Source: Diadema setosum (taxonomy: Eukaryota; Echinodermata; Echinoidea; Diadematoida; Diadematidae). Taken from it: 64,000 nucleotides of DNA. This document shows, in pieces, positions 12,058-42,955 of this stretch. The position numbers and the translations under genes are program-made. The notes under the pieces were generated by a model. The model was not told where the DNA came from and ran no database searches. It saw only the letters and a program-made list of their open reading frames with translations. Each line of letters starts with the position of its first letter. Within the stretch, counting starts at the first letter, position 1. The DNA lies in the NCBI GenBank assembly GCA_033980235.1, contig CM067069.1:16875650-16939649 (forward strand), written 5' to 3'.

Positions 12058-12265
12058 TAAATTCTTTGTGGTAAATACAATACTTTATAAAATTACCCTT
12101 ATGACAACTTACTGATTATTAAAATGTCACGTGGAATGTTATGTGCCAGAATGAGTAGATAATAATGGCTTGATATATTACGTATATAGTCGTGTGCAGG
12201 ACTTGAACAAGAAAACTTTTGGATATCCAATGCTTGTCAGTCATGAAATCTTGAATATTACTTAC

Positions 12266-12307
12266 CCTGACTGTGCGAGCTTTGGGTAGTTGGAACTATA
12301 GTTGAAC
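12266..12307 (-). CDS. Linker microexon after CUB-A, unit 1
   Basis: 42 nt, phase 1-1, between TTTAG and CAGG|GTAAGT. Encodes STIVPTTQSSHSQ, with Ile in place of the Met seen in other copies. Rich in Ser/Thr/Pro, so it is likely an O-glycosylated spacer. Confidence 0.7.
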
Positions 12308-12841
12308 CTAAACAAGAATCGTATAACAATATAAATGTTTGCTATTGGTGCATAATGCAAACCGATTCAGAACTCAAACGTAATCAAGCTTTCAAGACTT
12401 TGTCACTCTCAAAACACGCCGCTGTGTTCAAATAGTGTCAAAACTTAACTTAAACTTATTACAAAATTGAGATACCGACAATTCTTTTTATCTTCTTTGT
12501 ATTTGTTTCCCTGGTACGGATATTCTTATGCCTTTTTTATATACTAATTTTTTTCAAGAAATGTTGCTTATTACATTTGTTATACGCAGAAGCTATTATG
12601 GGGGTTATAAAACAGAAAGGAAATAACAATAGTGCTTTCTCAAAATATTGAATCACAGGTACATCAATATTCGCAGTATGTTTCCTTGCCCACATTTCGT
12701 CTTTAAACGGAATTCAGATGGGTTGAGATATCAAACTGCGTGCCTGCGGGTGACGATATTGTTCGGAAATCCGTTACAGCTTTAATAATTGTCATGTTTT
12801 CAATTTCACATCCTTTGGCAGCAGATGCATTCAAAACCCAC

Positions 12842-13192
12842 CTTCTTGGCACTGGAGTGTCAAGTCAGCCCTGAAACCAGAGTATGTTACGGACCCATCA
12901 CTGTGGAAGTACACAAAGGCTGACGTCGAATTCACCAGAACGTCAAACGGCGTCTCACGGTCTCCTGTGATTCTCCTTTCCACTGCTGTTGCATCTGCCC
13001 GAGTCGAACCAGGTCCTACTTTCACATAATCATAGGGACGTTCCGTTCGGAAACTGAGAAATTCCACGTTGAGTGAGCATCCAGCAGGAGAATTAATTGA
13101 CCATAGGACATCTGAGAAATCATCGTAGTCATCTGGGAAATTTGGTGAGGCGATGCGGTAGGTCATCCCAGGAACAAGCCTGACGTTTCCAC
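12842..13192 (-). CDS. CUB-A exon, unit 1
   Basis: 351 nt, phase 1-1, acceptor TTTTCAG, donor GAAG|GTGGGT. It encodes a whole CUB domain: the N-terminal strand GNVRLVPGMTYRIASPNFP contains the hallmark SPNFP, followed by DDYDDFSDVLWSI, PAGCSLNVEFLSF, RPYDYVKVGPG and the C-terminal YSGFRADLTLQC. CUB domains are extracellular beta-sandwich modules of about 110 residues used in protein and ligand binding, often with calcium. Here only two Cys are present (GCSL and LQC), not the usual four, and the second acidic residue of the common DG calcium motif reads PG. This copy has FHSDGSVTYSG. There is no internal Met requirement, as it is an internal exon. Confidence 0.85.
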
Positions 13193-14051
13193 CTGAAAAG
13201 ATGAAAAGCAGTATTAAAACGTCTCAACGAATTGACAATGCAAGTTGAATGCAACTTAACTGTAAATTAATATTAACATTCAAAAAAAAAATGCTGAGAC
13301 GTCTCGAGCACTGAATCCAAAGAAAATTGAACTAGAATGCAAAATGGGGCTAATAGAAGCGTTCCTTTACAACACCACAACAGATAGGTCGTATATCATG
13401 AGCAATGTGATTGGCTACAATAACAAAACATCCAACAGATTATAGATTAAACAGATAATATTATATACTGTAAAGTATGATTGGATAGCTACCTTTGATT
13501 TTTATCAATAGAGCATTTAAGCTCTTGAGAACTGTTTGAACATTTTATGCAGAAAAGTGTTTAATTAATTCCATTATAACTTGTATAATTGTTAGATGAA
13601 GAAACCCGGAAGTGGCATCAGAAGTTGCGCTGAATGCCTTTTTTGTTATTGTTATTTTTTGCTTGTTAGCTCGTGAAACCCTGAGGTGTTCCCCCCCCCT
13701 TCCCCCCCCCCCCCCCTTTGAAAACACTCCGCCGGCCCTGTGGTGTGCTCATGGTCATCAGTTATGTTTTATTTTTCTTGTGACTTTGTCATCTCAACTA
13801 TTGTCTCATCTTCACTGGGAACAATTTTTGTGCACTTAGCTAATTTGTATAACACTTACTCGATTCTTTGGTAAATACAATGATTTATAAAATTACCTTT
13901 ATGACAACTTACTGATTATTAAAATGGCATATGGGATGTTATGTGCCAGAATGAGTAGATAATAATTTCACGTAGTCGTGTGCAGGACTTGAACAAGAAA
14001 ACTTTTGGATATCCAATGATTGCCAGTCATAAAATCTTGAATATTACTTAC

Positions 14052-14093
14052 CCTGACTGTGCGAGCTTTGGGTAGTTGGGACCATAGTTGAAC
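14052..14093 (-). CDS. Linker microexon before CUB-A, unit 1
   Basis: 42 nt, phase 1-1, encoding STMVPTTQSSHSQ. It has the same sequence as the linker on the other side of CUB-A, so CUB-A is bracketed by a duplicated linker. Confidence 0.75.
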
Positions 14094-14318
14094 CTAAACA
14101 AGAATCATATAACAATATAAATGTTTGCTATTGGTGCAGAATGCCAACCGATTTAGAACTCAAACGTGATCAAGCTTTCAAGACTTTGTCACTCTCAAAA
14201 TTGCAACTTATAATTTTCATCAATAAAGCATTCAACCTCTTGAGAACTGTTTGAACATTGGAAGCAGAAAAATGAATAAATAATTTCATTATAACTTGTA
14301 TAATTATAAAGTATTTAC

Positions 14319-14360
14319 CGTCTGTGTCCAGGACAAATAGTTGCTCGGTTGTGCCTGCAC
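14319..14360 (-). CDS. GAGTTEQ microexon, unit 1
   Basis: 42 nt between ATCTGCAG and ACG|GTAAAT, phase 1-1, encoding GAGTTEQLFVLDTD. It is less Ser/Thr-rich than the other linkers and lies between CUB-B and the linker preceding CUB-A. Length and phase match the linkers, but sequence similarity is limited. Confidence 0.7.
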
Positions 14361-14625
14361 CTGCAGATTTAATAGCAAAAATAACCACACTATTATTTAT
14401 GACTTTCATACTAAAAAAGAAGAACAACAAATGTTTCAATTTCGAAGATTTGGATCGAAGTTAAGGAAGTTGAATTTCGATAGCAAAGGTTTTCTACGGT
14501 TAAGAAATTATCATTCATCATTTGATGTTCCTATTAACAAAATTATATAGAACGTAAGAGACGAAAAACTTAATTTCTGTGGAGTATCGCTGTCATGTTA
14601 AAAAGGGTAGTACATACATATATAT

Positions 14626-14674
<49 letters not shown>

Positions 14675-15486
14675 GCAAATAACTAAAAAAAAAGATATAT
14701 AGTTCCCATAGTAATTGCCACCACAGAGTCAGTATATCTAAACTTAGGAATGGCCTGTAACACTTCAATATGTAGGACTATTCTGATCTTGCCGCTATAC
14801 CTTGTCATGGTTTACCGTGTATATTATTTCCACAATCACAAGCTTTCTCATTGTAAAAGTAGCAATTAATGTGCTTTCTCAACAAACCATTGCCGCGCCA
14901 CTTGAGTACTCTCCTGTTTTTCTATCTCAAAATATTGTGTGAAGTTAATACTGTATTTTAGTTGTAATTATAACTTTATTCGTGCTCACTTATCATTATT
15001 TCAACAAATAATTGGTCATAGAAGACGAATACATGTAATTGCAAGAGCAAAGATGTAAAGAAAATGCCAAGCTTTGCATCGGTGTAAATTCTATGACAAA
15101 TCTATAATTGCTTTTCTCTAAAATTGCTTTTCTCTAAAATGCCCAGTAAATATATTACTTTTGCCCACAAAACAGTGACATAAACTTAGAATTTGCTCGC
15201 AAATCCAATATGAAACACTTCTTGCTAGTCAATCACCACATAAAATGCAAACTATTGACAAGAGGAACGGAATCGCGAGAAACGCTTTCATTTTACTGTG
15301 GCATTTGGCGATTTATTGATCGGTTTAGGCGGGTCTCTGAGTTTGAGCGGAATATGCGAAGTTGGAAAGCCGTCGACTGAGTCGGACTTTGTAAATCTTA
15401 TGCTTGATGAATGCAGACAGGGAAAATAAACAGAAAAAAAAAGGAAAATAGAACTCATCATGTTAACGACATAATCAAGTGCTCAC

Positions 15487-15831
15487 CCTGCATACAATCT
15501 GCTTGCACTGTTATATTGAATCCAGTGCTAGTGGATCTGTCATTAGAAACGAATCGAATCAACGTGCGTTCAGAGTTAACGTCGAGGTCAAAGGGCTTGA
15601 CTGGTCCAAAATAGGAATGGTCGTCGCCGATGTGAAGCCAGTCTCTAAATGCAGTGTCGAAAGTTACAAAGTGGACGTGTAGCTGACATCCCGATGGAAC
15701 TGTGACACTCCACGACACGTTAGTGTTGTCGCGATAGTCTCGCGGGAAGTTCGGAGAGGTGATGGCGGCAACTGCACCATCTGATTCCAAGTTCACTGTT
15801 CCAAAGAAAGGATTGAAGCCCAGGATGTTCA
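15487..15831 (-). CDS. CUB-B exon, unit 1
   Basis: 345 nt, phase 1-1, acceptor TTAACAAACAG, donor CAGG|GTGAGC. It encodes a CUB domain distinct from CUB-A: VNILGFNPFFGTVNLESDG leads into AAITSPNFPRDYRDN, WSVTVPSGCQLHVHF, RDWLHIGDD and STSTGFNITVQADC. As in CUB-A, two Cys occur, at the GC(Q/S)L position and at the domain end. This suggests a non-standard disulfide joining a central strand to the C-terminus. One or two N-glycosylation sequons are visible (NVSW, NITV). The acceptor lies directly against a remnant of the TGTGAC MITE end. Confidence 0.85.
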
Positions 15832-16447
15832 CTGTTTGTTAATTTTCTGATGCAGGGTCATATATATTTCATTCATGTGATAGAATTTAGAGAAGAAGTT
15901 TGTCCAGTTCATAATTAAAAACCCTTCAGCATAATTCTGTTAGACGAGACAAATGTCAAATTTTGACCCACTATATTATACTGTCATGCTAAATGAGAAA
16001 TTTAACACTGTCCATACACACGTGAGCAGAACAAAATGTTTCAAATATTCAGTTGCATCGGAGTGGAATACCGGAATAAAACATTAATCGCTGTCCATCC
16101 ATTCATCCATCTGTAGGCTTATTGTCTATTTATTTGCTCATGGTTGTCAGTTATACTTTTGTTTTGATTCTTTAGTCTCAAGTAGAATGTACATCTCTAA
16201 TAAAAACATTTTTGGTGCAATCAACCAATTTTATTGACACTTAGTCCATTCTCTATTAAATACAATGATTCATTACAATTATCCATATAGAGCTTAGTGA
16301 TTATCAAAATATGGACTGTCGTGTTCCAGAATGAATAGATAATGATGAATTGAGCTTTTATGTGGTCGTTTGCAGTACTTGAACATGTTGAACAAGTGAG
16401 TTTTTGAATTTTTGTTGGTCAGTCGTGAAATCACAAATTTTACTTAC

Positions 16448-16489
16448 CCTGACTGTGCGAGCTCTGAGTAGTTGCAGCGATAGTAGATC
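16448..16489 (-). CDS. Linker microexon before CUB-B, unit 1
   Basis: 42 nt, phase 1-1, acceptor GGTTTAG, encoding STIAATTQSSHSQ. The AATT variant is specific to this position of the unit. Confidence 0.75.
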
Positions 16490-16852
16490 CTAAACCAGAA
16501 TAATGTAACAATGCAAATATTTGCTAGTGATGAACCAATATAATTCAAAACTATTGTATGATCTTCCTTGAAAGACATAGTCATTCTCACAACACGTTGG
16601 TATGCTGAAATACAGTGTGGTGAAATATCAAATCTTAACGCCATCTTATCACAAAAAAGAAAATCAGACATCAGCAATTTCATATTTTCCCCCAGTATTT
16701 GATATCTTTATTCAAATTAATGAAATCCTTCAGTTGAGATGTTTTTATTGGAACCGATTGTCAATTTGCCCTACATCACATCAACATAAATAAAAGCACT
16801 ACCCGCTGCATAATGTAAGGATTAGAAAGACAACTTGCTGTCGAGCTGAAGC

Positions 16853-16911
16853 TGGGCGGTCTAGTGAAGATGACGCCTGTCCGGAGATCAGGAAGTCGTA
16901 GGTTTGAATCC
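16853..16911 (+). repeat. tRNA-like (SINE-like) relic, unit 1
   Basis: GGGCGGTCTAGTGAAGATGA resembles a pol III A box, CCTGTCCGGAGATCAGG forms an anticodon-arm-like hairpin, and GGTTTGAATCC differs by one base from the B-box consensus GGTTCGANTCC. There is no matching acceptor stem, so it is a tRNA-derived repeat and not a working tRNA gene. Confidence 0.5.
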
Positions 16912-17250
16912 TTATGATATTATTATAATGTTTATAGAATGTACGCCCATGATTTCTTTCATCATGGCAACAACTACTACTAAAACAAATAAACAAATTT
17001 TGCATTTTCAGATATGAAATTAACAGTCGATTCTTTGGTAAATACAATGATTTATAAAATTACCTTTATGACAACTTACTGATTATTAAAATTACCTTTA
17101 TGACAACTTACTGATTATTAAAATGGCATGTGGAATGTTATGTGCCAGAATGAGTAGATAATAATTTCACGTAGTCCTGTGCAGGACTTGAACAAGAAAA
17201 CTTTTGGATATCCAATGCTTGTCAGTCATGACATCTTGAATATTACTTAC

Positions 17251-17292
17251 CCTGACTGTGCGAGCTTTGGGTAGTTGGGACCATAGTTGAAC
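17251..17292 (-). CDS. Linker microexon after CUB-A, unit 2
   Basis: 42 nt, phase 1-1, STMVPTTQSSHSQ. Just to its left the intron carries a 33-bp direct duplication containing ACCTTTATGACAACTTACTG. Confidence 0.75.
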
Positions 17293-17834
17293 CTAAACAA
17301 GAATCATATAACAATATAAATGTTTGCTATTGGTGCAGAATGCCAACCGATTTAGAACTCAAACGTGATCAAGCTTTCAAGACTTTCTTACTCTCAAAAC
17401 ATGCCGCTGTGTTCAAATAGTGTCAAAACTTAACTTAAACCTATTACAAAATTGAGATACCGACAATTCTTTTTATCTTCTTTGTATTTGTTTCCCTGGG
17501 ACGGATATTCCTATGCCTTTTTTATATACTAGTTTGTTTTTTTTTTTCAAGAAATGTAGTTTATTACATTTGTTATACGCAGAAGCTATTATGGGGGTTA
17601 TAAAACAGAAAGGAAATAACAATAGTGCTTTCTCAAAATATTGAATCACAGGTACATCAATATTCGCAGTATGTTTCCTTGCCCACATTTCGTCTTTAAA
17701 CGGAATTCAGATGGGTTGAGATATCAAACTGCGTGCCTGCGGGTGACGATATTGTTCGGAAATCCGTTACAGCTTTAATAATTGTCATGTTTTCAATTTC
17801 ACATCCGTTGGCAGCTGATGCATTCAAAACCCAC

Positions 17835-18185
17835 CTTCTTGGCACTGGAGTGTCAAGTCAGCCCTGAAACCAGAGTATCTTACGGACCCATCACTGCGGA
17901 AGTACACAAAGGCTGACGTCGAATTCACCAGAACGTCAAACGGCGTCTCACGGTCTCCTGTGATTCTCCTTTCCACTGCTGTTGCATCTGCCCGAGTCGA
18001 ACCAGGTCCTACTTTCACATAATCATAGGGACGTTCCGTTCGGAAACTGAGAAATTCCACGTTGAGTGAGCATCCGGCAGGAGAATTGATTGACCACAGG
18101 ACATCTGACAAATCATCGTAGTCATCTGGGAAATTTGGTGAGGCGATGCGGTAGGTCATCCCAGGAACAAGCCTGACGTTTCCAC
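17835..18185 (-). CDS. CUB-A exon, unit 2
   Basis: Same architecture as unit 1, with three replacements I can see: DDLSDVLW for DDFSDVLW, FRSDGSV for FHSDGSV and VRYSG for VTYSG. Splice sites intact, no stop. Confidence 0.85.
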
Positions 18186-19040
18186 CTGAAAAGATGAAAA
18201 GCAGTATTAGAACGTCTCAACGAATTGACAATGCAAGTTGAATGCAACTTAATTGTAAATTAATATTAACATTCAAAAAAAAAATGCTGAGACGTCTCGA
18301 GCACTGAATCCAAAGAAAATTGAACTAGAATGCAAAATGGGGCTAAAAGAGGCGTTCCTTTACAACACCACAACAGATAGGTCGTATATCATGAGCAATG
18401 TGATTGGCTACAATAACAAAACATCCAACAGATTATAGATTAAACAGATAATATTATATACTGTAAAGTATGATTGGATAGCTACCTTTGATTTTTATCA
18501 ATAGAGCATTTAAGCTCTTGAGAACTGTTTGAACATTTTATGCAGAAAAGTGATTAATTAATTCCATTATAACTTGTATAATTGTTAGACGAAGAAACCC
18601 GGAAGTGGCATCAGAAGTTGCGCTGAATGCCTTTTTTGTTATTGTTATTTTTTGCTTGTTAGCTCGTGAAACCCTGAGGTGTTCCCCCCCTTCCCCCACC
18701 CCCTTTGAAAACACTCCGCCGGCCCTGTGGTGTGCTCATGGTCATCAGTTATGTTTTATTTTTCTTGTGACTTTGTCATCTCAACTATATTGTCTCATCT
18801 TCACTGGGAACAATTTTTGTGCACTTAGCTAATTTGTATAACACTTACTCGATTCTTTGGTAAATACAATGATTTATAAAATTACCTTTATGACAACTTA
18901 CTGATTATTAAAATGGCATGTGGAATGTTATGTGCCAGAATGAGTTGATAATAATTTCACGTAGTCGTGTGCAAGACTTGAACAAGAAAACTTTTGGATA
19001 TCCAATGCTTGTCAGTCATGAAATCTTGAATATTACTTAC

Positions 19041-19082
19041 CCTGACTGTGCGAGCTTTGGGTAGTTGGGACCATAGTTGAAG
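19041..19082 (-). CDS. Linker microexon before CUB-A, unit 2
   Basis: 42 nt, phase 1-1. The first exon base is C instead of G (TTTAG|CTTCAAC), changing the junction residue from Gly to Ala if the preceding base is G. Otherwise STMVPTTQSSHSQ. Confidence 0.7.
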
Positions 19083-19308
19083 CTAAACAAGAATCATAAA
19101 ACAATATAAATGTTTGCTATTGGTGCAGAATGCCAACCGATTTAGAACTCAAACGTGATCAAGCTTTCAAGACTTTGTCCCTCTCAAAATTGCAACTTAT
19201 AATTTTCATCAAATAAAACATTCAACCTCTTGAGAACTGTTTGAACATTGGAAGCAGAAAAATGAATAAATAATTTCATTATAACTTGTATAATTATAAA
19301 GTATTTAC

Positions 19309-19350
19309 CGTCTGTGTCCAGGACAAATAGTTGCTCGGTTGTGCCTGCAC
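19309..19350 (-). CDS. GAGTTEQ microexon, unit 2
   Basis: Encodes GAGTTEQLFVLDTD. The acceptor is ATCTTCAG here, not ATCTGCAG as in units 1 and 3. Confidence 0.7.
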
Positions 19351-19615
19351 CTGAAGATTTAATAGCAAAAATAACCACACTATTATTTATGACTTTCATA
19401 CTAAAAAAGAAGAACAACAAATGTTTCAATTTCGAAGATTTGGATCGAAGTTAAGGAAGTTGAATTTCGATAGCAAAGGTTTTCTACGGTTAAGAAAATA
19501 TCATTCATCATTTGATGTTTCTATTAACAAAATTATATAGAACGTAAGAGACGAAAAACTTAATTTCTGTGGAGTATCGCTGTCATGTTAAAAAGGGTAG
19601 TACATACATATATAT

Positions 19616-19661
<46 letters not shown>

Positions 19662-20475
19662 TGTGCAAATAACTAAAAAAAAAATATATAGTTCCCATAG
19701 TAATTGCCACCACAGAGTCAGTATATCTAAACTTAGGAATGGCCTGTAACACTTCAATATGTAGGACTATTCTGATCTTGCCGCTATACCTTGTCATGGT
19801 TTACCGTGTATATTATTTCCACAATCACAAGCTTTCTCATTGTAAAAGTAGCAATTAATGTGCTTTCTCAACAAACCATTGCCGCGCCACTTGAGTACTC
19901 TCCTGTTTTTCTATCTCAAAATATTGTGTGAAGTTAATACTGTATTTTAGTTGTAATTATAACTTTATTCGTGCTCACTTATCATTATTTCAACAAATAA
20001 TTGGTCATAGAAGACGAATACATGTAATTGCAAGAGCAAAGATGTAAAGAAAATGCCAAGCTTTGCATCGGTGTAAATTCTATGACAAATCTATAATTGC
20101 TTTTCTCTAAAATTGCTTTTCTCTAAAATGCCCAGTAAATATATTACTTTTGCCCACAAAACAGTGACATAAACTTAGAATTTGCTCGCAAATCCAATAT
20201 GAAACACTTCTTGCTAGTCAATCACCACATAAAATGCAAACTATTGACAAGAGGAACGGAATCGCGAGAAACGCTTTCATTTTACTGTGGCATTTGGCGA
20301 TTTATTGATCGGTTTAGGCGGGTCTCTGAGTTTGAGCGGAATATGCGAAGTTGGAAAGCCGTCGACTGAGTCGGACTTTGTAAATCTTATGCTTGATGAA
20401 TGCAGACAGGGAAAATAAACAGAAAAAAAAAGGAAAATAGAACTCATCATGTTAACGACATAATCAAGTGCTCAC

Positions 20476-20820
20476 CCTGCATACAATCTGCTTGCACTGT
20501 TATATTGAATCCAGTGCTAGTGGATCTGTCATTAGAAACGAATCGAATCAACGTGCGTTCAGAGTTAACGTCGAGGTCAAAGGGCTTGACTGGTCCAAAA
20601 TAGGAATGGTCGTCGCCGATGTGAAGCCAGTCTCTAAATGCAGTGTCGAAAGTTACAAAGTGGACGTGTAGCTGACATCCCGATGGAACTGTGACACTCC
20701 ACGACACGTTAGTGTTGTCGCGATAGTCTCGCGGGAAGTTCGGAGAGGTGATGGCGGCAACTGCACCATCTGATTCCAAGTTCACTGTTCCAAAGAAAGG
20801 ATTGAAGCCCAGGATGTTCA
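20476..20820 (-). CDS. CUB-B exon, unit 2
   Basis: The encoded peptide is identical to that of unit 1 CUB-B over the full 115 codons. Splice sites intact. Confidence 0.85.
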
Positions 20821-21436
20821 CTGTTTGTTAATTTTCTGATGCAGGGTCATATATATTTCATTCATGTGATAGAATTTAGAGAAGAAGTTTGTCCAGTTCA
20901 TAATTAAAAACCCTTCAGCATAATTCTGTTAGACGAGACAAATGTCAAATTTTGCCCCACTATATTATACTGTCATGCTAAATGAGAAATTTAACACTGT
21001 CCATACACACGTGAGCAGAACAAAATGTTTCAAATATTCAGTTGCATCGGAGTGGATTACCGGAATAAAACATTAATCGCTGTCCATCCATTCATCCATC
21101 TGTAGGCTTATTGTCTATTTATTTGCTCATGGTTGTCAGTTATACTTTTGTTTTGATTCTTTAGTCTCAAGTAGAATGTACATCTCTAATAAAAACATTT
21201 TTGGTGCAATCAACCAATTTTATTGACACTTAGTCCATTCTCTATTAAATACAATGCTTCATTACAATTATCCATATAGAGCTTAGTGATTATCAAAATA
21301 TGGACTGTCGTGTTCCAGAATGAATAGATAATGATGAATTGAGCTTTTATGTGGTCGTTTGCAGTACTTGAACATGTTGAACAAGTGAGTTTTTGAATTT
21401 TTGTTGGTCAGTCGTGAAATCACAAATTTTACTTAC

Positions 21437-21478
21437 CCTGACTGTGCGAGCTCTGAGTAGTTGCAGCGATAGTAGATC
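21437..21478 (-). CDS. Linker microexon before CUB-B, unit 2
   Basis: 42 nt, STIAATTQSSHSQ, identical to unit 1. Confidence 0.75.
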
Positions 21479-21841
21479 CTAAACCAGAATAATGTAACAA
21501 TGCAAATATTTGCTAGTGATGAACCAATATAATTCAAAACTATTGTATGATCTTCCTTGAAAGACATAGTCATTCTCACAACACGTTGGTATGCTGAAAT
21601 ACAGTGTGGTGAAATATCAAATCTTAACGCCATCTTATCACAAAAAAGAAAATCAGACATCAGCAATTTCATATTTTCCCCCAGTATTTGATATCTTTAT
21701 TCAAATTAATGAAATCCTTCAGTTGAGATGTTTTTATTGGAACCGATTGTCAATTTGCCCTACATCACATCAACATAAATAAAAGCACTACCCGCTGCAT
21801 AATGTAAGGATTAGAAAGACAACTTGCTGTCGAGCTGAAGC

Positions 21842-21900
21842 TGGGCGGTCTAGTGAAGATGACGCCTGTCCGGAGATCAGGAAGTCGTAGGTTTGAATCC
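21842..21900 (+). repeat. tRNA-like relic, unit 2
   Basis: Copy of the 16853 element with the same A-box-like and GGTTTGAATCC motifs. Confidence 0.5.
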
Positions 21901-22239
21901 TTATGATATTATTATAATGTTTATAGAATGTACGCCCATGATTTCTTTCATCATGGCAACAACTACTACTAAAACAAATAAACAAATTTTGCATTTTCAG
22001 ATATGAAATTAACAGTCGATTCTTTGGTAAATACAATGATTTATAAAATTACCTTTATGACAACTTACTGATTATTAAAATTACCTTTATGACAACTTAC
22101 TGATTATTAAAATGGCATGTGGAATGTTATGTGCCAGAATGAGTAGATAATAATTTCACGTAGTCCTGTGCAGGACTTGAACAAGAAAACTTTTGGATAT
22201 CCAATGCTTGTCAGTCATGACATCTTGAATATTACTTAC

Positions 22240-22281
22240 CCTGACTGTGCGAGCTTTGGGTAGTTGGGACCATAGTTGAAC
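22240..22281 (-). CDS. Linker microexon after CUB-A, unit 3
   Basis: 42 nt, STMVPTTQSSHSQ. The acceptor-side intron reads CCTTTTTAG here, a small difference from other copies. Confidence 0.75.
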
Positions 22282-22833
22282 CTAAAAAGGAATCATATAA
22301 CAATATAAATGTTTCCTATTGGTGCAGAATGCAAACCGATTCAGAACTCAAACGTAATCAAGCTTTCAAGACTTTCTTACTCTCAAAACATGCGCCGCTG
22401 TGTTCAAATAGTGTCAAAACTTAACTTAAACCTATTACAAAATTGAGATACCGACAATTCTTTTTATCTTCTTTGTATTTGTTCCCTGGGACGGATATTC
22501 TTATGCCTTTTTTATATATAGGCCCCTACTAGTTTTTTTTTTTCTTCAAGAAATGTTATTTATTACATTTTTTATACGCAGATGCTATTATGGAGGTTAT
22601 AAAACAGAAAGGAAATAACAACAATGCTTTCTCAAAATATTGAATCACAGGTACATCAATATTCGCAGTATGTTTCCTTGCCCACATTTCGTCTTTAAAC
22701 GGAATTCAGATGGGTTGAGATATCAAACTGCGTGCCTGCGGGTGACGATATTGTTCGGAAATCCGTTACAGCTTTAATAATTGTCATGTTTTCAATTTCA
22801 CATCCTTTGGCAGCTGATGCATTCAAAACCCAC

Positions 22834-24052: not shown

Positions 24053-24094
24053 CCTGACTGTGCGAGCTTTGGGTAGTTGGGACCATAGTTGAAC
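24053..24094 (-). CDS. Linker microexon before CUB-A, unit 3
   Basis: 42 nt, STMVPTTQSSHSQ. Confidence 0.75.
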
Positions 24095-31761: not shown

Positions 31762-32377
31762 CTGTTTGTTAATTTTCTGATGCAGGGTCATATATATTTC
31801 ATTCATGTGATAGAATTTAGAGAAGAAGTTTGTCCAGTTCATAATTAAAAACCCTTCAGCATAATTCTGTTAGACGAGACAAATGTCAAATTTTGCCCCA
31901 CTATATTATACTGTCATGCTAAATGAGAAATTTAACACTGTCCATACACACGTGAGCAGAACAAAATGTTTCAAATATTCAGTTGCATCGGAGTGGAATA
32001 CCGGAATAAAACATGAATCGCTGTCCATCCATTCATCCATCTGTAGGCTTATTGTCTATTTATTTGCTCATGGTTGTCAGTTATACTTTTGTTTTGATTC
32101 TTTAGTCTCAAGTAGAATGTACATCTCTAATAAAAACATTTTTGGTGCAATCAACCAATTTTATTGACACTTAGTCCATTCTCTATTAAATACAATGCTT
32201 CATTACAATTATCCATATAGAGCTTAGTGATTATCAAAATATGGACTGTCGTGTTCCAGAATGAATAGATAATGATGAATTGAGCTTTTATGTGGTCGTT
32301 TGCAGTACTTGAACATGTTGAACAAGTGAGTTTTTGAATTTTTGTTGGTCAGTCGTGAAATCACAAATTTTACTTAC

Positions 32378-32419
32378 CCTGACTGTGCGAGCTCTGAGTA
32401 GTTGCAGCGATAGTAGATC
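32378..32419 (-). CDS. Linker microexon before CUB-B, unit 4
   Basis: 42 nt, STIAATTQSSHSQ. Confidence 0.75.
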
Positions 32420-32782
32420 CTAAACCAGAATAATGTAACAATGCAAATATTTGCTAGTGATGAACCAATATAATTCAAAACTATTGTATGATCTTCCTTG
32501 AAAGACATAGTCATTCTCACAACACGTTGGTATGCTGAAATACAGTGTGGTGAAATATCAAATCTTAACGCCATCTTATCACAAAAAAGAAAATCAGACA
32601 TCAGCAATTTCATATTTTCCCCCAGTATTTGATATCTTTATTCAAATTAATGAAATCCTTCAGTTGAGATGTTTTTATTGGAACCGATTGTCAATTTGCC
32701 CTACATCACATCAACATAAATAAAAGCACTACCCGCTGCATAATGTAAGGATTAGAAAGACAACTTCCTGTCGAGCTGAAGC

Positions 32783-32842
32783 TGGGCGGTCTAGTGAAGA
32801 TGACGCCTGTCCGGAGATCAGGAAGTCGTAGGTTTGAATCCT
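32783..32842 (+). repeat. tRNA-like relic, unit 4
   Basis: Copy of the 16853 element. Confidence 0.5.
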
Positions 32843-33188
32843 TATGATATTATTATAATGTTTATAGAATGTACGCCCATGATTTCTTTCATCATGGCAA
32901 CAACTACTACTAAAACAAATAAACAAACGAACAAATTTTGCATTTTCAGATATGAAATTAACAGTCGATTCTTTGGTAAATACAATGATTTATAAAATTA
33001 CCTTTATGACAACTTACTGATTATTAAAATTACCTTTATGACAACTTACTGATTATTAAAATGGCATGTGGAATGTTATGTGCCAGAATGAGTAGATAAT
33101 AATTTCACGTAGTCCTGTGCAGGACTTGAACAAGAAAACTTTTGGATATCCAATGCTTGTCAGTCATGACATCTTGAATATTACTTAC

Positions 33189-33230
33189 CCTGACTGTGCG
33201 AGCTTTGGGTAGTTGGGACCATAGTTGAAC
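33189..33230 (-). CDS. Linker microexon after CUB-A, unit 5
   Basis: 42 nt, STMVPTTQSSHSQ. Confidence 0.75.
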
Positions 33231-33767
33231 CTAAACAAGAATCATATAACAATATAAATGTTTGCTATTGGTGCAGAATACCAACCGATTTAGAACTCAA
33301 ACGTGATCAAGCTTTCAAGACTTTCTTACTCTCAAAACATGCCGCTGTGTTCAAATAGTGTCAAAACTTAACTTAAACCTATTACAAAATTGAGATACCG
33401 ACAATTCTTTTTTTTCTTCTTTGTATTTGTTTCCCTGGGACGGATATTCCTATGCCTTTTTTATATACTATTTTTTTTTTCAAGAAATGTAGTTTATTAC
33501 ATTTGTTATACGCAGAAGCTATTATGGAGGTTATAAAACAGAAAGGAAATAACAACAGTGCTTTCTCAAAACATTGAATCACAGGTACATCAATATTCGC
33601 AGTATGTTTCCTTGCCCACATTTCGTCTTTAAACGGAATTCAGATGGGTTGAGATATCAAACTGCGTGCCTGCGGGTGACGATATTGTTCGGAAATCCGT
33701 TACAGCTTTAATAATTGTCATGTTTTCAATTTCACATCCGTTGGCAGCTGATGCATTCAAAACCCAC

Positions 33768-34118
33768 CTTCTTGGCACTGGAGTGTCAAGTCAGCCCTGA
33801 AACCAGAGTATCTTACGGACCCATCACTGTGGAAGTACACAAAGGCTGACGTCGAATTCACCAGAACGTCAAACGGCGTCTCACGGTCTCCTGTGATTCT
33901 CCTTTCCACTGCTGTTGCATCTGCCCGAGTCGAACCAGGTCCTACTTTCACATAATCATAGGGACGTTCCGTTCGGAAACTGAGAAATTCCACGTTGAGT
34001 GAGCATCCAGCAGGAGAATTAATTGACCATAGGACATCTGAGAAATCATCGTAGTCATCTGGGAAATTTGGTGAGGCGATGCGGTAGGTCATCCCAGGAA
34101 CAAGCCTGACGTTTCCAC
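33768..34118 (-). CDS. CUB-A exon, unit 5
   Basis: Peptide the same as units 4 and 6 (FHSDGSVRYSG type). Intact splice sites. Confidence 0.85.
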
Positions 34119-34973
34119 CTGAAAAGATGAAAAGCAGTATTAAAACGTCTCAACGAATTGACAATGCAAGTTGAATGCAACTTAACTGTAAATTAATATT
34201 AACATTCAAAAAAAAAAATGCTGAGACGTCTCGAGCACTGAATCCAAAGAAAATTGAACTAGAATGCAAAATGGGGCTAAGAGAGGCGTTCCTCTACAAC
34301 ACCACAACAGATAGGTCGTATATCATGAGCAATGTGATTGGCTACAATAACAAAACATCCAACAGATTATAGATTAAACAGATAATATTATATACTGTAA
34401 AGTATGATTGGATAGCTACCTTTGATTTTTATCAATAGAGCATTTAAGCTCTTGAGAACTGTTTGAACATTTTATGCAGAAAAGTGATTAATTAATTCCA
34501 TTATAACTTGTATAATTGTTAGATGAAGAAACCCGGAAGTGGCATCAGAAGTTGCGCTGAATGCCTTTTTTGTTATTGTTATTTTTTGCTTGTTAGCTCG
34601 TGAAACCCTGAGGTGTTCCCCCCTTCCCCCCCCCCCCCTTTGAAAACACTCCGCCGGCCCTGTGGTGTGCTCATGGTCATCAGTTATGTTTTATCTTTCT
34701 TGTGACTTTGTCATCTCAACTATTGTCTCATCTTCACTGGGAACAATTTTTGTGCACTTAGCTAATTTGTATAACACTTACTCGATTCTTTGGTAAATAC
34801 AATGATTTATAAAATTACCTTTATGACAACTTACTGATTATTAAAATGGCATGTGGAATGTTATGTGCCAGAATGAGTAGATAATAATTTCACGTAGTCG
34901 TGTGGAAGACTTGAACAAGAAAACTTTTGGATATCCAATGCTTGTCAGTCATGAAATCTTGAATATTACTTAC

Positions 34974-35015
34974 CCTGACTGTGCGAGCTTTGGGTAGTTG
35001 GGACCATAGTTGAAC
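34974..35015 (-). CDS. Linker microexon before CUB-A, unit 5
   Basis: 42 nt, STMVPTTQSSHSQ. Confidence 0.75.
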
Positions 35016-35240
35016 CTAAACAAGAATCATAAAACAATATAAATGTTTGCTATTGGTGCAGAATGCCAACCGATTTAGAACTCAAACGTGATCAAGCTTT
35101 CAAGACTTTGTCACTCTCAAAATTGCAACTTATAATTTTCATCAATAAAGCATTCAACCTCTTGAGAACTGTTTGAACATTGGAAGCAGAAAAATGAATA
35201 AATAATTTCATTATAACTTGTATAATTATAAAGTATTTAC

Positions 35241-35282
35241 CGTCTGTGTCCAGGACAAATAGTTGCTCGGTTGTGCCTGCAC
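35241..35282 (-). CDS. GAGTTEQ microexon, unit 5
   Basis: 42 nt, GAGTTEQLFVLDTD. Confidence 0.7.
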
Positions 35283-35550
35283 CTGAAGATTTAATAGCAA
35301 AAATAACCACACTATTATTTATGACTTTCATACTAAAAAAGAAGAACAACAAATGTTTCAATTTCGAAGATTTGGATCGAAGTTAAGGAAGTTGAATTTC
35401 GATAGCAAAGGTTTTCTACGGTTAAGAAAATATCATTCATCATTTGATGTTCCTATTAACAAAATTATATAGAACGTAAGAGACGAAAAACTTAATTTCT
35501 GTGGAGTATCGCTGTCATGTTAAAAAGGGTAGTACATACATATATATTAT

Positions 35551-35595
<45 letters not shown>

Positions 35596-36413
35596 CTATT
35601 GTGCAAATAACTAAAAAAAAAATATATAGTTCCCATAGTAATTGCCACCACAGAGTCAGTATATCTAAACTTAGGAATGGCCTGTAACACTTCAATATGT
35701 AGGACTATTCTGATCTTGCCGCTATACCTTGTCATGGTTTACCGTGTATATTATTTCCACAATCACAAGCTTTCTCATTGTAAAAGTAGCAATTAATGTG
35801 CTTTCTCAACAAACCATTGCCGCGCCACTTGAGTACTCTCCTGTTTTTCTATCTCAAAATATTGTGTGAAGTTAATACTGTATTTTAGTTGTAATTATAA
35901 CTTTATTCGTGCTCACTTATCATTATTTCAACAAATAATTGGTCATAGAAGACGAATACATGTAATTGCAAGAGCAAAGATGTAAAGAAAATGCCAAGCT
36001 TTGCATCGGTGTAAATTCTATGACAAATCTATAATTGCTTTTCTCTAAAATTGCTTTTCTCTAAAATGCCCAGTAAATATATTACTTTTGCCCACAAAAC
36101 AGTGACATAAACTTAGAATTTGCTCGCAAATCCAATATGAAACACTTCTTGCTAGTCAATCGCCACATAAAATGCAAACTATTGACAAGAGGAACGGAAT
36201 CGCGAGAAACGCTTTCATTTTACTGTGGCATTTGGCGATTTATTGATCGGTTTAGGCGGGTCTCTGAGTTTGAGCGGAATATGCGAAGTTGGAAAGCCGT
36301 CGACTGAGTCGGACTTTGTAAATCTTATGCTTGATGAATGCAGACAGGGAAAATAAACAGAAAAAAAAAGGAAAATAGAACTCATCATGTTAACGACATA
36401 ATCAAGTGCTCAC

Positions 36414-36758
36414 CCTGCATACAATCTGCTTGCACTGTTATATTGAATCCAGTGCTAGTGGATCTGTCATTAGAAACGAATCGAATCAACGTGCGTTCAG
36501 AGTTAACGTCGAGGTCAAAGGGCTTGACTGGTCCAAAATAGGAATGGTCGTCGCCGATGTGAAGCCAGTCTCTAAATGCAGTGTCGAAAGTTACAAAGTG
36601 GACGTGTAGCTGACATCCCGATGGAACTGTGACACTCCACGACACGTTAGTGTTGTCGCGATAGTCTCGCGGGAAGTTCGGAGAGGTGATGGCGGCAACT
36701 GCACCATCTGATTCCAAGTTCACTGTTCCAAAGAAAGGATTGAAGCCCAGGATGTTCA
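36414..36758 (-). CDS. CUB-B exon, unit 5
   Basis: Peptide identical to units 1, 2, 3 and 6. Confidence 0.85.
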
Positions 36759-37374
36759 CTGTTTGTTAATTTTCTGATGCAGGGTCATATATATTTCATT
36801 CATGTGATAGAATTTAGAGAAGAAGTTTGTCCAGTTCATAATTAAAGACCCTTCAGCATAATTCTGTTAGACGAGACAAATGTCAAATTTTGACCCACTA
36901 TCTTATACTGTCATGCTAAATGAGAAATTTAACACTGTCCATACACACGTGAGCAGAACAAAATGTTTCAAATATTCAGTTGCATCGGAGTGGAATGCCG
37001 GAATAAAACATGAATCGCTGTCCATCCATTCATCCATCTGTAGGCTTATTGTCTATTTATTTGCTCATGGTTGTCAGTTATACTTTTGTTTTGATTCTTT
37101 AGTCTCAAGTAGAATGTACATCTCTAATAAAAACATTTTTGGTGCAATCAACCAATTTTATTGACACTTAGTCCATTCTCTATTAAATACAATGCTTCAT
37201 TACAATTATCCATATAGAGCTTAGTGATTATCAAAATATGGACTGTCGTGTTCCAGAATGAATAGATAATGATGAATTGAGCTTTTATGTGGTCGTTTGC
37301 AGTACTTGAACATGTTGAACAAGTGAGTTTTTGAATTTTTGTTGGTCAGTCGTGAAATCACAAATTTTACTTAC

Positions 37375-37416
37375 CCTGACTGTGCGAGCTCTGAGTAGTT
37401 GCAGCGATAGTAGATC
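37375..37416 (-). CDS. Linker microexon before CUB-B, unit 5
   Basis: 42 nt, STIAATTQSSHSQ. Confidence 0.75.
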
Positions 37417-37779
37417 CTAAACCAGAATAATGTAACAATGCAAATATTTGCTAGTGATGAACCAATATAATTCAAAACTATTGTATGATCTTCCTTGAAA
37501 GACATAGTCATTCTCACAACACGTTGGTATGCTGAAATACAGTGTGGTGAAATATCAAATCTTAACGCCATCTTATCACAAAAAAGAAAATCAGACATCA
37601 GCAATTTCATATTTTCCCCCAGTATTTGATATCTTTATTCAAATTAATGAAATCCTTCAGTTGAGATGTTTTTATTGGAACCGATTGTCAATTTGCCCTA
37701 CATCACATCAACATAAATAAAAGCACTACCCGCTGCATAATGTAAGGATTAGAAAGACAACTTGCTGTCGAGCTGAAGC

Positions 37780-37839
37780 TGGGCGGTCTAGTGAAGATGA
37801 CGCCTGTCCGGAGATCAGGAAGTCGTAGGTTTGAATCCT
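37780..37839 (+). repeat. tRNA-like relic, unit 5
   Basis: Copy of the 16853 element. Confidence 0.5.
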
Positions 37840-38186
37840 TATGATATTATTATAATGTTTATAGAATGTACGCCCATGATTTCTTTTCATCATGGCAACA
37901 ACTACTACTAAAACAAATAAACAAACGAACAAATTTTGCATTTTCAGATATGAAATTAACAGTCGATTCTTTGGTAAATACAATGATTTATAAAATTACC
38001 TTTATGACAACTTACTGATTATTAAAATTACCTTTATGACAACTTACTGATTATTAAAATGGCATGTGGAATGTTATGTGCCAGAATGAGTAGATAATAA
38101 TTTCACGTAGTCCTGTGCAGGACTTGAACAAGAAAACTTTTGGATATCCAATGCTTGTCAGTCATGACATCTTGAATATTACTTAC

Positions 38187-38228
38187 CCTGACTGTGCGAG
38201 CTTTGGGTAGTTGGGACCATAGTTGAAC
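38187..38228 (-). CDS. Linker microexon after CUB-A, unit 6
   Basis: 42 nt, STMVPTTQSSHSQ. Confidence 0.75.
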
Positions 38229-38764
38229 CTAAACAAGAATCATATAACAATATAAATGTTTGCTATTGGTGCAGAATACCAACCGATTTAGAACTCAAAC
38301 GTGATCAAGCTTTCAAGACTTTCTTACTCTCAAAACATGCCGCTGTGTTCAAATAGTGTCAAAACTTAACTTAAACCTATTACAAAATTGAGATACCGAC
38401 AATTCTTTTTTTTCTTCTTTGTATTTGTTTCCCTGGGACGGATATTCCTATGCCTTTTTTATATACTATTTTTTTTTTCAAGAAATGTAGTTTATTACAT
38501 TTGTTATACGCAGAAGCTATTATGGAGGTTATAAAACAGAAGGAAATAACAACAGTGCTTTCTCAAAACATTGAATCACAGGTACATCAATATTCGCAGT
38601 ATGTTTCCTTGCCCACATTTCGTCTTTAAACGGAATTCAGATGGGTTGAGATATCAAACTGCGTGCCTGCGGGTGACGATATTGTTCGGAAATCCGTTAC
38701 AGCTTTAATAATTGTCATGTTTTCAATTTCACATCCGTTGGCAGCTGATGCATTCAAAACCCAC

Positions 38765-39115
38765 CTTCTTGGCACTGGAGTGTCAAGTCAGCCCTGAAAC
38801 CAGAGTATCTTACGGACCCATCACTGTGGAAGTACACAAAGGCTGACGTCGAATTCACCAGAACGTCAAACGGCGTCTCACGGTCTCCTGTGATTCTCCT
38901 TTCCACTGCTGTTGCATCTGCCCGAGTCGAACCAGGTCCTACTTTCACATAATCATAGGGACGTTCCGTTCGGAAACTGAGAAATTCCACGTTGAGTGAG
39001 CATCCAGCAGGAGAATTAATTGACCATAGGACATCTGAGAAATCATCGTAGTCATCTGGGAAATTTGGTGAGGCGATGCGGTAGGTCATCCCAGGAACAA
39101 GCCTGACGTTTCCAC
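38765..39115 (-). CDS. CUB-A exon, unit 6
   Basis: FHSDGSVRYSG type, intact. Confidence 0.85.
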
Positions 39116-39969
39116 CTGAAAAGATGAAAAGCAGTATTAAAACGTCTCAACGAATTGACAATGCAAGTTGAATGCAACTTAACTGTAAATTAATATTAAC
39201 ATTCAAAAAAAAAATGCTGAGACGTCTCGAGCACTGAATCCAAAGAAAATTGAACTAGAATGCAAAATGGGGCTAATATTGGCGTTCCTCTACAACACCA
39301 CAACAGATAGGTCGTATATCATGAGCAATGTGATTGGCTACAATAACAAAACATCCAACAGATTATAGATTAAACAGATAATATTATATACTGTAAAGTA
39401 TGATTGGATAGCTACCTTTGATTTTTATCAATAGAGCATTTAAGCTCTTGAGAACTGTTTGAACATTTTATGCAGAAAAGTGATTAATTAATTCCATTAT
39501 AACTTGTATAATTGTTAGATGAAGAAACCCGGAAGTGGCATCAGAAGTTGCGCTGAATGCCTTTTTTGTTATTGTTATTTTTTGCTTGTTAGCTCGTGAA
39601 ACCCTGAGGTGTTCCCCCCTTCCCCCCCCCCCCCTTTGAAAACACTCCGCCGGCCCTGTGGTGTGCTCATGGTCATCAGTTATGTTTTATCTTTCTTGTG
39701 ACTTTGTCATCTCAACTATTGTCTCATCTTCACTGGGAACAATTTTTGTGCACTTAGCTAATTTGTATAACACTTACTCGATTCTTTGGTAAATACAATG
39801 ATTTATAAAATTACCTTTATGACAACTTACTGATTATTAAAATGGCATGTGGAATGTTATGTGCCAGAATGAGTAGATAATAATTTCACGTAGTCGTGTG
39901 GAAGACTTGAACAAGAAAACTTTTGGATATCCAATGCTTGTCAGTCATGAAATCTTGAATATTACTTAC

Positions 39970-40011
39970 CCTGACTGTGCGAGCTTTGGGTAGTTGGGAC
40001 CATAGTTGAAC
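39970..40011 (-). CDS. Linker microexon before CUB-A, unit 6
   Basis: 42 nt, STMVPTTQSSHSQ. Confidence 0.75.
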
Positions 40012-40236
40012 CTAAACAAGAATCATAAAACAATATAAATGTTTGCTATTGGTGCAGAATGCCAACCGATTTAGAACTCAAACGTGATCAAGCTTTCAAG
40101 ACTTTGTCACTCTCAAAATTGCAACTTATAATTTTCATCAATAAAGCATTCAACCTCTTGAGAACTGTTTGAACATTGGAAGCAGAAAAATGAATAAATA
40201 ATTTCATTATAACTTGTATAATTATAAAGTATTTAC

Positions 40237-40278
40237 CGTCTGTGTCCAGGACAAATAGTTGCTCGGTTGTGCCTGCAC
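40237..40278 (-). CDS. GAGTTEQ microexon, unit 6
   Basis: 42 nt, GAGTTEQLFVLDTD. Confidence 0.7.
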
Positions 40279-40546
40279 CTGAAGATTTAATAGCAAAAAT
40301 AACCACACTATTATTTATGACTTTCATACTAAAAAAGAAGAACAACAAATGTTTCAATTTCGAAGATTTGGATCGAAGTTAAGGAAGTTGAATTTCGATA
40401 GCAAAGGTTTTCTACGGTTAAGAAAATATCATTCATCATTTGATGTTCCTATTAACAAAATTATATAGAACGTAAGAGACGAAAAACTTAATTTCTGTGG
40501 AGTATCGCTGTCATGTTAAAAAGGGTAGTACATACATATATATTAT

Positions 40547-40591
<45 letters not shown>

Positions 40592-41410
40592 CTATTGTGC
40601 AAATAACTAAAAAAAAAAATATATAGTTCCCATAGTAATTGCCACCACAGAGTCAGTATATCTAAACTTAGGAATGGCCTGTAACACTTCAATATGTAGG
40701 ACTATTCTGATCTTGCCGCTATACCTTGTCATGGTTTACCGTGTATATTATTTCCACAATCACAAGCTTTCTCATTGTAAAAGTAGCAATTAATGTGCTT
40801 TCTCAACAAACCATTGCCGCGCCACTTGAGTACTCTCCTGTTTTTCTATCTCAAAATATTGTGTGAAGTTAATACTGTATTTTAGTTGTAATTATAACTT
40901 TATTCGTGCTCACTTATCATTATTTCAACAAATAATTGGTCATAGAAGACGAATACATGTAATTGCAAGAGCAAAGATGTAAAGAAAATGCCAAGCTTTG
41001 CATCGGTGTAAATTCTATGACAAATCTATAATTGCTTTTCTCTAAAATTGCTTTTCTCTAAAATGCCCAGTAAATATATTACTTTTGCCCACAAAACAGT
41101 GACATAAACTTAGAATTTGCTCGCAAATCCAATATGAAACACTTCTTGCTAGTCAATCGCCACATAAAATGCAAACTATTGACAAGAGGAACGGAATCGC
41201 GAGAAACGCTTTCATTTTACTGTGGCATTTGGCGATTTATTGATCGGTTTAGGCGGGTCTCTGAGTTTGAGCGGAATATGCGAAGTTGGAAAGCCGTCGA
41301 CTGAGTCGGACTTTGTAAATCTTATGCTTGATGAATGCAGACAGGGAAAATAAACAGAAAAAAAAAGGAAAATAGAACTCATCATGTTAACGACATAATC
41401 AAGTGCTCAC

Positions 41411-41755
41411 CCTGCATACAATCTGCTTGCACTGTTATATTGAATCCAGTGCTAGTGGATCTGTCATTAGAAACGAATCGAATCAACGTGCGTTCAGAGT
41501 TAACGTCGAGGTCAAAGGGCTTGACTGGTCCAAAATAGGAATGGTCGTCGCCGATGTGAAGCCAGTCTCTAAATGCAGTGTCGAAAGTTACAAAGTGGAC
41601 GTGTAGCTGACATCCCGATGGAACTGTGACACTCCACGACACGTTAGTGTTGTCGCGATAGTCTCGCGGGAAGTTCGGAGAGGTGATGGCGGCAACTGCA
41701 CCATCTGATTCCAAGTTCACTGTTCCAAAGAAAGGATTGAAGCCCAGGATGTTCA
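41411..41755 (-). CDS. CUB-B exon, unit 6 (first CUB in transcription order)
   Basis: Peptide identical to units 1, 2, 3 and 5. It is the CUB copy nearest the FN3 exon and so the most N-terminal in the array. Confidence 0.85.
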
Positions 41756-42371
41756 CTGTTTGTTAATTTTCTGATGCAGGGTCATATATATTTCATTCAT
41801 GTGATAGAATTTAGAGAAGAAGTTTGTCCAGTTCATAATTAAAGACCCTTCAGCATAATTCTGTTAGACGAGACAAATGTCAAATTTTGACCCACTATCT
41901 TATACTGTCATGCTAAATGAGAAATTTAACACTGTCCATACACACGTGAGCAGAACAAAATGTTTCAAATATTCAGTTGCATCGGAGTGGAATGCCGGAA
42001 TAAAACATGAATCGCTGTCCATCCATTCATCCATCTGTAGGCTTATTGTCTATTTATTTGCTCATGGTTGTCAGTTATACTTTTGTTTTGATTCTTTAGT
42101 CTCAAGTAGAATGTACATCTCTAATAAAAACATTTTTGGTGCAATCAACCAATTTTATTGACACTTAGTCCATTCTCTATTAAATACAATGCTTCATTAC
42201 AATTATCCATATAGAGCTTAGTGATTATCAAAATATGGACTGTCGTGTTCCAGAATGAATAGATAATGATGAATTGAGCTTTTATGTGGTCGTTTGCAGT
42301 ACTTGAACATGTTGAACAAGTGAGTTTTTGAATTTTTGTTGGTCAGTCGTGAAATCACAAATTTTACTTAC

Positions 42372-42413
42372 CCTGACTGTGCGAGCTCTGAGTAGTTGCA
42401 GCGATAGTAGATC
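42372..42413 (-). CDS. Linker microexon before CUB-B, unit 6
   Basis: 42 nt, STIAATTQSSHSQ. It is the first array exon after FN3, and both have phase 1 ends, so FN3 can be joined directly to it. Confidence 0.75.
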
Positions 42414-42777
42414 CTAAACCAGAATAATGTAACAATGCAAATATTTGCTAGTGATGAACCAATATAATTCAAAACTATTGTATGATCTTCCTTGAAAGAC
42501 ATAGTCATTCTCACAACACGTTGGTATGCTGAAATACAGTGTGGTGAAATATCAAATCTTAACGCCATCTTATCACAAAAAAGAAAATCAGACATCAGCA
42601 ATTTCATATTTTCCCCCAGTATTTGTTATCTTTATTCAAATTAATGAAATCCTTCAGTTGAGATGTTTTTATTGGAACCGATTGTCAATTTGCCCTACAT
42701 CACATCAACATAAATATAAGCACTACCCGCTGCATAATGTAAGGATTAGAAAGACAACTTGCTGTCGAGCTGAAGCT

Positions 42778-42837
42778 GGGCGGTCTAGTGAAGATGACGC
42801 CTGTCCGGAGATCAGGTAGTCGTAGGTTTGAATCCTT
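42778..42837 (+). repeat. tRNA-like relic, unit 6
   Basis: Copy of the 16853 element with GGTAGTCGTAGG in place of GGAAGTCGTAGG. Confidence 0.5.
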
Positions 42838-42955
42838 ATGATATTATTATAATGTTTATAGAATGTACGCCCATGATTTCTTTCATCATGGCAACAACTA
42901 CTACTAAAACAAATAAACAAACGAACAAATTTTGCATTTTCAGATATGAAATTAA

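Follow-up and report, generated by a model that had tools for sequence, protein, structure and literature searches.

Six near-identical CUB-B/CUB-A units in a predicted extracellular-protein gene of the sea urchin Diadema setosum

A 64,000-nucleotide stretch of the Diadema setosum genome (C11:16875650-16939649, hereafter the window; other C11 coordinates refer to the same contig) carries six direct repeats of about 5 kb, each with one CUB-B and one CUB-A domain exon. The reading that we consider probable is a single minus-strand gene for a secreted, multi-domain extracellular protein, in which six CUB-B/CUB-A pairs sit on Ser/Thr spacers and the repeats multiply valency. A segment of about 5 kb bearing one such pair would have been amplified in tandem after the split from Diadema antillarum, or homogenised since.

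Structure of the array

The units lie on the minus strand, a correction to the first-pass annotation of this DNA, at spacings of 4989, 4986, 5955, 4997 and 4997. Their homology runs from about 42957 down to about 12058-12088, essentially the limits (12058..42955) drawn before, and the earlier claim of six near-identical, in-frame dual-CUB units of about 5 kb is confirmed by the spacings, the Pfam CUB matches and the exon phases. The exon order per unit is STI-CUB-B-AGT-STM-CUB-A-STM, with lengths of 42, 309, 42, 42, 351 and 42 nt. All 41 exons of the window model (HYR, FN3, seven STI, 12 STM, six AGT, six CUB-B, six CUB-A, ST7 and ShKT) are phase 1-1 with AG..GT borders, and no stop occurs across its 1,899 amino acids; neither a stop nor a broken splice site was found among the 37 array exons. 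With phase 1-1 exons and intronic breakpoints, the reading frame survives whatever the number of whole units, as had been proposed. The features are listed below; P0002 and P0003 are uncharacterised predicted proteins of D. antillarum.

60547..60786, minus strand: HYR exon, 240 nt, phase 1-1, upstream of FN3 (Pfam HYR E 1e-21; splice sites; HYR-FN3 junction as in P0002/P0003)
43950..44234, minus strand: FN3 exon, 285 nt, phase 1-1 (Pfam fn3 E 1.3e-8; splice score; 91% to P0002)
37962..42957, minus strand: unit 1 (STI 42413-42372, CUB-B 41719-41411, AGT 40278-40237, STM 40011-39970, CUB-A 39115-38765, STM 38228-38187)
32964..37961, minus strand: unit 2 (STI 37416-37375, CUB-B 36722-36414, AGT 35282-35241, STM 35015-34974, CUB-A 34118-33768, STM 33230-33189)
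27960..32963, minus strand: unit 3 (STI 32419-32378, CUB-B 31725-31417, AGT 30281-30240, STM 30014-29973, CUB-A 29114-28764, STM 28226-28185)
22015..27959, minus strand: unit 4, with a 951-bp insertion (STI 27415-27374, extra STI 26464-26423, CUB-B 25770-25462, AGT 24361-24320, STM 24094-24053, CUB-A 23184-22834, STM 22281-22240)
26204..27154, minus strand: 951-bp extra piece between units 3 and 4, a copy of about 120 bp of the array 5' edge (42957-43076, poly-G/C tract) plus a second unit start; partly read by eye
17026..22014, minus strand: unit 5 (STI 21478-21437, CUB-B 20784-20476, AGT 19350-19309, STM 19082-19041, CUB-A 18185-17835, STM 17292-17251)
12058..17025, minus strand: unit 6 (STI 16489-16448, CUB-B 15795-15487, AGT 14360-14319, STM 14093-14052, CUB-A 13192-12842, STM 12307-12266)
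11017..11067, minus strand: ST7, diverged Ser/Thr spacer exon, 51 nt, phase 1-1, STIGPVVQTTQISHSQ (matches P0002 STIGPMVQTTQISHSQ)
8076..8189, minus strand: ShKT exon, 114 nt, phase 1-1 (Pfam ShK E 0.0004, 21.3 bits, barely above the cut-off of 20.9; 87.5% to P0002)
6345..6391, minus strand: terminal exon, DDGTTEVPTEEGPSP and stop, first residue split with the ShKT exon (93% to the P0002 C-terminus)

The HYR, ST7, terminal and extra STI exons had been overlooked. The 351- and 42-nt exons stand as first delimited, whereas the CUB-B exon, previously given as 345 nt, is more probably 309 nt: a simple splice model scores the 309-nt acceptor at 2.5 and the 345-nt acceptor at -8.7, and the start of the 309-nt exon aligns with that of the CUB-A exon. 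Both versions keep the frame.

Pfam results for three of the 12 CUB exons place them in the CUB family (PF00431), with E values of 2.7e-12 for one B exon and 4.9e-14 and 4e-14 for two A exons, and scores of 47-53 bits against a cut-off of 21.4. All six CUB-A exons are present in a genome-wide CUB list (885,718,524 bases, 96 contigs; 150 of 665 candidates scored), and a minus-strand scan of unit 2 returned its two CUBs, the sole other family being a second CUB model. By sequence, the closest solved structures are MASP-3 (E 3.8e-16) and MASP-1 (E 8e-16) for CUB-A and cubilin (E 2.3e-10) for CUB-B. Acidic residues E, D and D, at positions that presumably mark calcium-binding CUBs, are kept in CUB-A where MASP-3 aligns, and CUB-B has Ala at the cubilin Glu; CUB-A is thus predicted to bind calcium and CUB-B not to. 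N-glycosylation sequons number at least three per unit (NVS and NIT in CUB-B, NST in CUB-A), and the spacers are rich in Ser and Thr. Mean hydropathy over 19 residues never exceeds 1.42 in the window model, which therefore shows no sign of a membrane anchor. Scans of the window for Rfam families and tRNAs gave no matches.

Divergence among the units and the count of six

Pairwise divergence among the units is 0.08-1.48%. Units 1-3 are separated by 4-13 substitutions per 5 kb (four in 4,995 bp between units 2 and 1, 13 between units 3 and 1), and units 4, 5 and 6 stand 0.72-1.48% apart from every other unit and 1.23-1.48% from each other; the six CUB-B exons are identical at the protein level. 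The four-gamete test is failed by 97 of 496 pairs from 32 informative sites, as expected if the units exchange sequence, although with six sequences this is modest evidence, part of which repeated mutation or alignment error may explain. In a protein tree of 33 domains (26 different), which carried long-branch warnings, the six CUB-A domains of the window form one clade apart from those of D. antillarum P0001-P0003 (P0001 is a paralogue described below), with support of 94/98, just under the star of the tree tool (95 and 80). The repeats are therefore closer to one another than to the orthologous repeats, which probably places the amplification of the array, or its last homogenisation, after the split.

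The D. setosum assembly was built from HiFi reads with a mean length of 8,449 bp at 21x, and heterozygosity is 2.11% (PMC11066563). The divergence of the units lies below this heterozygosity and incompatible sites occur among them; on these sequence comparisons the array is young, and unequal exchange or conversion has probably made its units alike. A further trace of rearrangement lies between units 3 and 4, where the junction at about 27131-27155 joins non-homologous sequence within an intron; it should therefore derive from real reads and record a block duplication, which adds one spacer exon in frame. Together with the near-identical units and the incompatible site pairs, this duplicated edge makes plausible the earlier suggestion that array length changes by unequal crossing-over.

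The same figures bear on the count. Because the reads average less than two units, units 1-3 are nearly identical and allelic divergence exceeds that among units, copies may have been miscounted or drawn from both haplotypes, and six is a provisional count. It is possible, though we think it unlikely, that the gene is real and six units are a product of assembly, two alleles or an unresolved repeat having been strung together, for example from three units per haplotype. The slight differences among units 1-3 fit such an origin, as does the recurrence of the array edge between units 3 and 4, which gives a 3+3 layout and adjoins a poly-G/C tract; such tracts are hard to sequence. An overlap error, however, would not create the non-homologous junction, for which real (or chimeric) reads are expected, the window is without any N, and units 4, 5 and 6 are distinct from one another. 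Indirect evidence, which is also all that bears on a retained second copy of the locus, comes from the genome-wide CUB list: among the 150 of 665 candidates scored, none besides the six CUB-A exons matches them in score and in having a 130-residue frame.

A ratio of nonsynonymous to synonymous rates (dN/dS) among the units would have too few changes to draw on, with at most four synonymous and four nonsynonymous per CUB-A pair and none in CUB-B. Against diverged paralogous exons, dN/dS is 0.37 for CUB-A and 0.31 for CUB-B, which supports function over the longer term.

The array stands out from its surroundings. A comparison across 264 kb that includes the locus gave 34 repeat pairs with a minimum length of 600 bp and at least 90% identity, 14 of them in the array; the remaining 20 link seven places of one dispersed repeat of about 700 bp. 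One of its copies lies at 3520-4223, and a diverged relative (about 72%, opposite orientation) is found downstream of the array at 9755-10323. Between ST7 and ShKT, stretches at 10361-10469 and 10863-10914 match unit introns at 70-91% identity; these diverged remnants suggest an older, decayed unit lacking its CUB exons.

The gene beyond the window and its relatives

P0002 (1,098 amino acids) and P0003 have the order CUB-NIDO-HYR-FN3-spacers-CUB-A-spacers-ShKT-tail, the same as that seen here. P0002 is 85-91% identical to the window in the CUB-A exons, 91% in FN3 and 87.5% in ShKT, and it maps in order on C11: CUBs at 16982824 and 16979277, four pieces over NIDO and its border at 16951007-16945481, then HYR, FN3, the array and ShKT. 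Pfam detects NIDO at the upstream D. setosum site too. The junction sequences that P0002 and the window model have in common are HYR-FN3 (TVVGQIEVRNL), FN3-spacer (PPTGST), and those of ST7 and of the ShKT nearest the tail; P0002 carries an additional ShKT between these two. Further upstream, a signal-peptide exon, MLSANSILVVCLLAQLAA, has a phase-1 donor at C11:17018328, and a tblastn search limited to seven proteins of the family turned up no family exon between that exon and the first CUB. This and the other 5' exons would belong to the array gene.

With an exon order shared with a D. antillarum predicted protein, the locus looks like one gene, predicted as signal-CUB-CUB-NIDO-HYR-FN3-(CUB-B/CUB-A)6-ShKT, with an estimated span of about 136 kb and a product of about 2,400 residues. 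The order FN3-(CUB-B/CUB-A)6-ShKT given by the first-pass annotation is retained, and the predicted product is longer, by the HYR in the window and by NIDO, two CUBs and the signal peptide upstream. That one transcript joins all repeat exons is supported indirectly by the exon phases, by the orthologous HYR-FN3-spacer and spacer-ShKT joins and by a search for a signal-peptide-like first exon (ATG, hydrophobic stretch, donor), which found none in unit 2, the one of the six units searched; as a control, two candidates occurred in one of five stretches and none in the other four. We regard it as very improbable that the units are six independent genes or a non-coding duplication in decay. The lack of a significant difference between exon and intron divergence among the units (see below) would suit such a reading, but the missing first exon in unit 2, the 37 intact array exons and the orthologous order with single FN3 and ShKT ends stand against both.

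Relatives were sought in three sets of protein matches (7, 146, of which 120 are listed, and 14; about 8,000 best candidates scored in each). Among the matches listed, only Diadema proteins closely match the FN3-spacer-CUB part; the other matches in the sets of 7 and 14 are CUB proteins at 23-31% identity, and those in the set of 146 match mainly via HYR or NIDO. Two paralogues, P0001 of D. antillarum and P0125 from another D. setosum assembly, both have FN3, Ser/Thr spacers and CUB-B, and P0001 has CUB-A as well, diverged CUB-B and CUB-A alternating after its FN3; P0125 adds SRCR and kringle domains. Their first CUB-B domains are 94% (P0001) and 91% (P0125) identical to that of the window. 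In both, a cysteine-rich cassette precedes FN3, the units are diverged and not homogenised, and Pfam gives no HYR, NIDO or ShK match. Along the chromosome, 27 of the 150 listed CUB matches fall at C11 16.88-17.44 Mb, all on the minus strand. The array gene is a member of a Diadema family of mosaic proteins with phase 1-1 exons, clustered on one chromosome. Further tandem CUB exons occur in the same cluster: three CUB matches about 1.35 kb apart lie at C11:17436444-17439437, and pairs at 1.3 kb lie near 17425521 and 17157971. The earlier statement that no protein of this architecture has been described holds only for the exact array: predicted paralogues and a D. antillarum orthologue with fewer CUBs exist, and urchin EBR1 has CUB repeats and HYR.

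Relative to the window, the P0002 and P0003 models have two CUB-A, no CUB-B and two ShKT, with two HYR in P0002; the model nonetheless keeps the AGT spacer exon. One could read the array as a store of cassettes for alternative splicing, each mRNA taking one or few CUB pairs in any subset that symmetric exons allow. This we hold to be rather unlikely. It would account for the uniform exon phase and for an orthologue model that has the AGT spacer and lacks CUB-B, but the units encode near-identical proteins, with no difference at all in CUB-B, so that choosing among them gives little diversity, and fewer exons in D. antillarum may be the simple explanation of the missing CUB-B.

Several observations weigh against a single, fully used gene under constraint. 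Among the units, 12 of 828 exon sites and 93 of 4151 intron sites vary (p=0.18), so that conservation in exons does not exceed that in introns; the likeness of the units is put down to recent copying or homogenisation and not to constraint on the exons, the intact exons are not by themselves proof of selection, and we make no claim of selection on the array exons. The support for the CUB-A clade falls just short of the tool's mark. The D. antillarum orthologue model omits CUB-B entirely and contains two CUB-A, so some units may go unused, and the signal exon has a near-identical counterpart in paralogues. The gene model draws on DNA and predicted proteins, and searches of annotated proteins did not recover the array protein in the range of 430-3323 amino acids, though another D. 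setosum assembly is apparently annotated.

Other sequences occupy the introns. Inverted in the HYR-FN3 intron, on the plus strand, are three cysteine-rich cassette exons (51672-51872, 55011-55139, 57132-57260), 80-84% identical to P0125; the cassette is Ly6/uPAR-like by eye, has no Pfam match and lies in the sense direction just before FN3 in P0001 and P0125. The same intron holds a fragmented non-LTR retrotransposon (47263-49739, minus strand) with reverse transcriptase and endonuclease matches in several frames. A GDSL-lipase family match (C11:16959650-16969649, minus strand; E 4.8e-7, just below the Pfam cut-off) lies in the CUB-NIDO intron, and a DUF4817 match in another stretch (L013).

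Possible role and comparison with known repeat proteins

Preservation of the frame means that unequal crossing-over and gene conversion can alter copy number and keep the copies alike. In the single-gene reading, the repeats would multiply a low-affinity, CUB-mediated contact, more units giving higher avidity, and the role is most likely in extracellular recognition or matrix, for example egg-coat binding or body-fluid defence. The sequence itself shows the anatomy, the frame, the order and near-identity of the units, the incompatible site patterns and the orthologous exon order; a single transcript, secretion, valency, polymorphism of copy number and the role are inferred. A bolder version, which we think unlikely, is a living length polymorphism: individuals of D. 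setosum would differ in the number of near-identical CUB-B/CUB-A pairs in one secreted protein through unequal crossing-over on an allelic time scale, that number would set binding strength at the egg coat or to microbes, and echinoids would have evolved here, independently, a parallel to the repeat arrays of EBR1 and VERL. What the locus presents is the in-frame copying, within a single gene, of a whole 5-kb genomic segment that comprises six exons with their introns. Should the number of copies differ among urchins, the locus offers a natural series of changing valency at almost constant sequence, and the effect of repeat number on extracellular recognition would be directly measurable. At such loci, copy number is not to be trusted in assemblies from reads shorter than two units.

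In the open-licence literature, neither a combination of CUB, ShKT, HYR and fibronectin type III domains nor tandem duplication of CUB-domain exons with concerted evolution was found described. Searches there for Diadema with CUB domains returned only titles on assassin-bug venom and spider spinning glands, those for echinoderm CUB, ShK and nidogen only titles on red coral and sponge, and those for urchin immune tandem families no title on such a gene.

The closest echinoid parallel is EBR1 (egg bindin receptor 1), marked by its egg-surface location and by bindin binding. It is described as an egg protein of sea urchins in which both CUB and HYR are repeated (PMC8403831) and as an ADAMTS-family protein with CUB and TSP1 repeats (PMC9265791). 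Like it, the array gene would encode a large extracellular protein with repeated CUBs (12 CUB exons) and HYR, although it has one HYR in the window where EBR1 has several. No ADAMTS or TSP1 match was found by Pfam in P0001-P0003 or P0125, nor on the minus strand of window positions 1-12300 and 42501-64000, unit 2, C11:16939650-16944649 and 16949650-16999649; the scans did not take in the other five units, C11:16944650-16949649 and 16999650-17018328, so that a protease may lie further upstream. Given these scans, we do not class the array gene as EBR1. Its mode of action may be similar, and an immune or structural role may be equally open to it.

In its mode of evolution the array resembles abalone VERL: repeats 3-22 are more than 95% identical through conversion or unequal crossing-over (PMC2704960), and the repeats are ZP-N domains (PMC8830517). 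Both are long intragenic arrays of closely similar repeats, but the ZP-N repeats adjoin without introns, whereas the Diadema gene copies CUB exons together with long introns. Cubilin likewise has many CUBs in one protein, and the CUBs of the window match its solved CUBs by sequence. The CUBs of cubilin are diverged and form one uninterrupted run; those of the array gene are of two types that alternate on Ser/Thr spacers.

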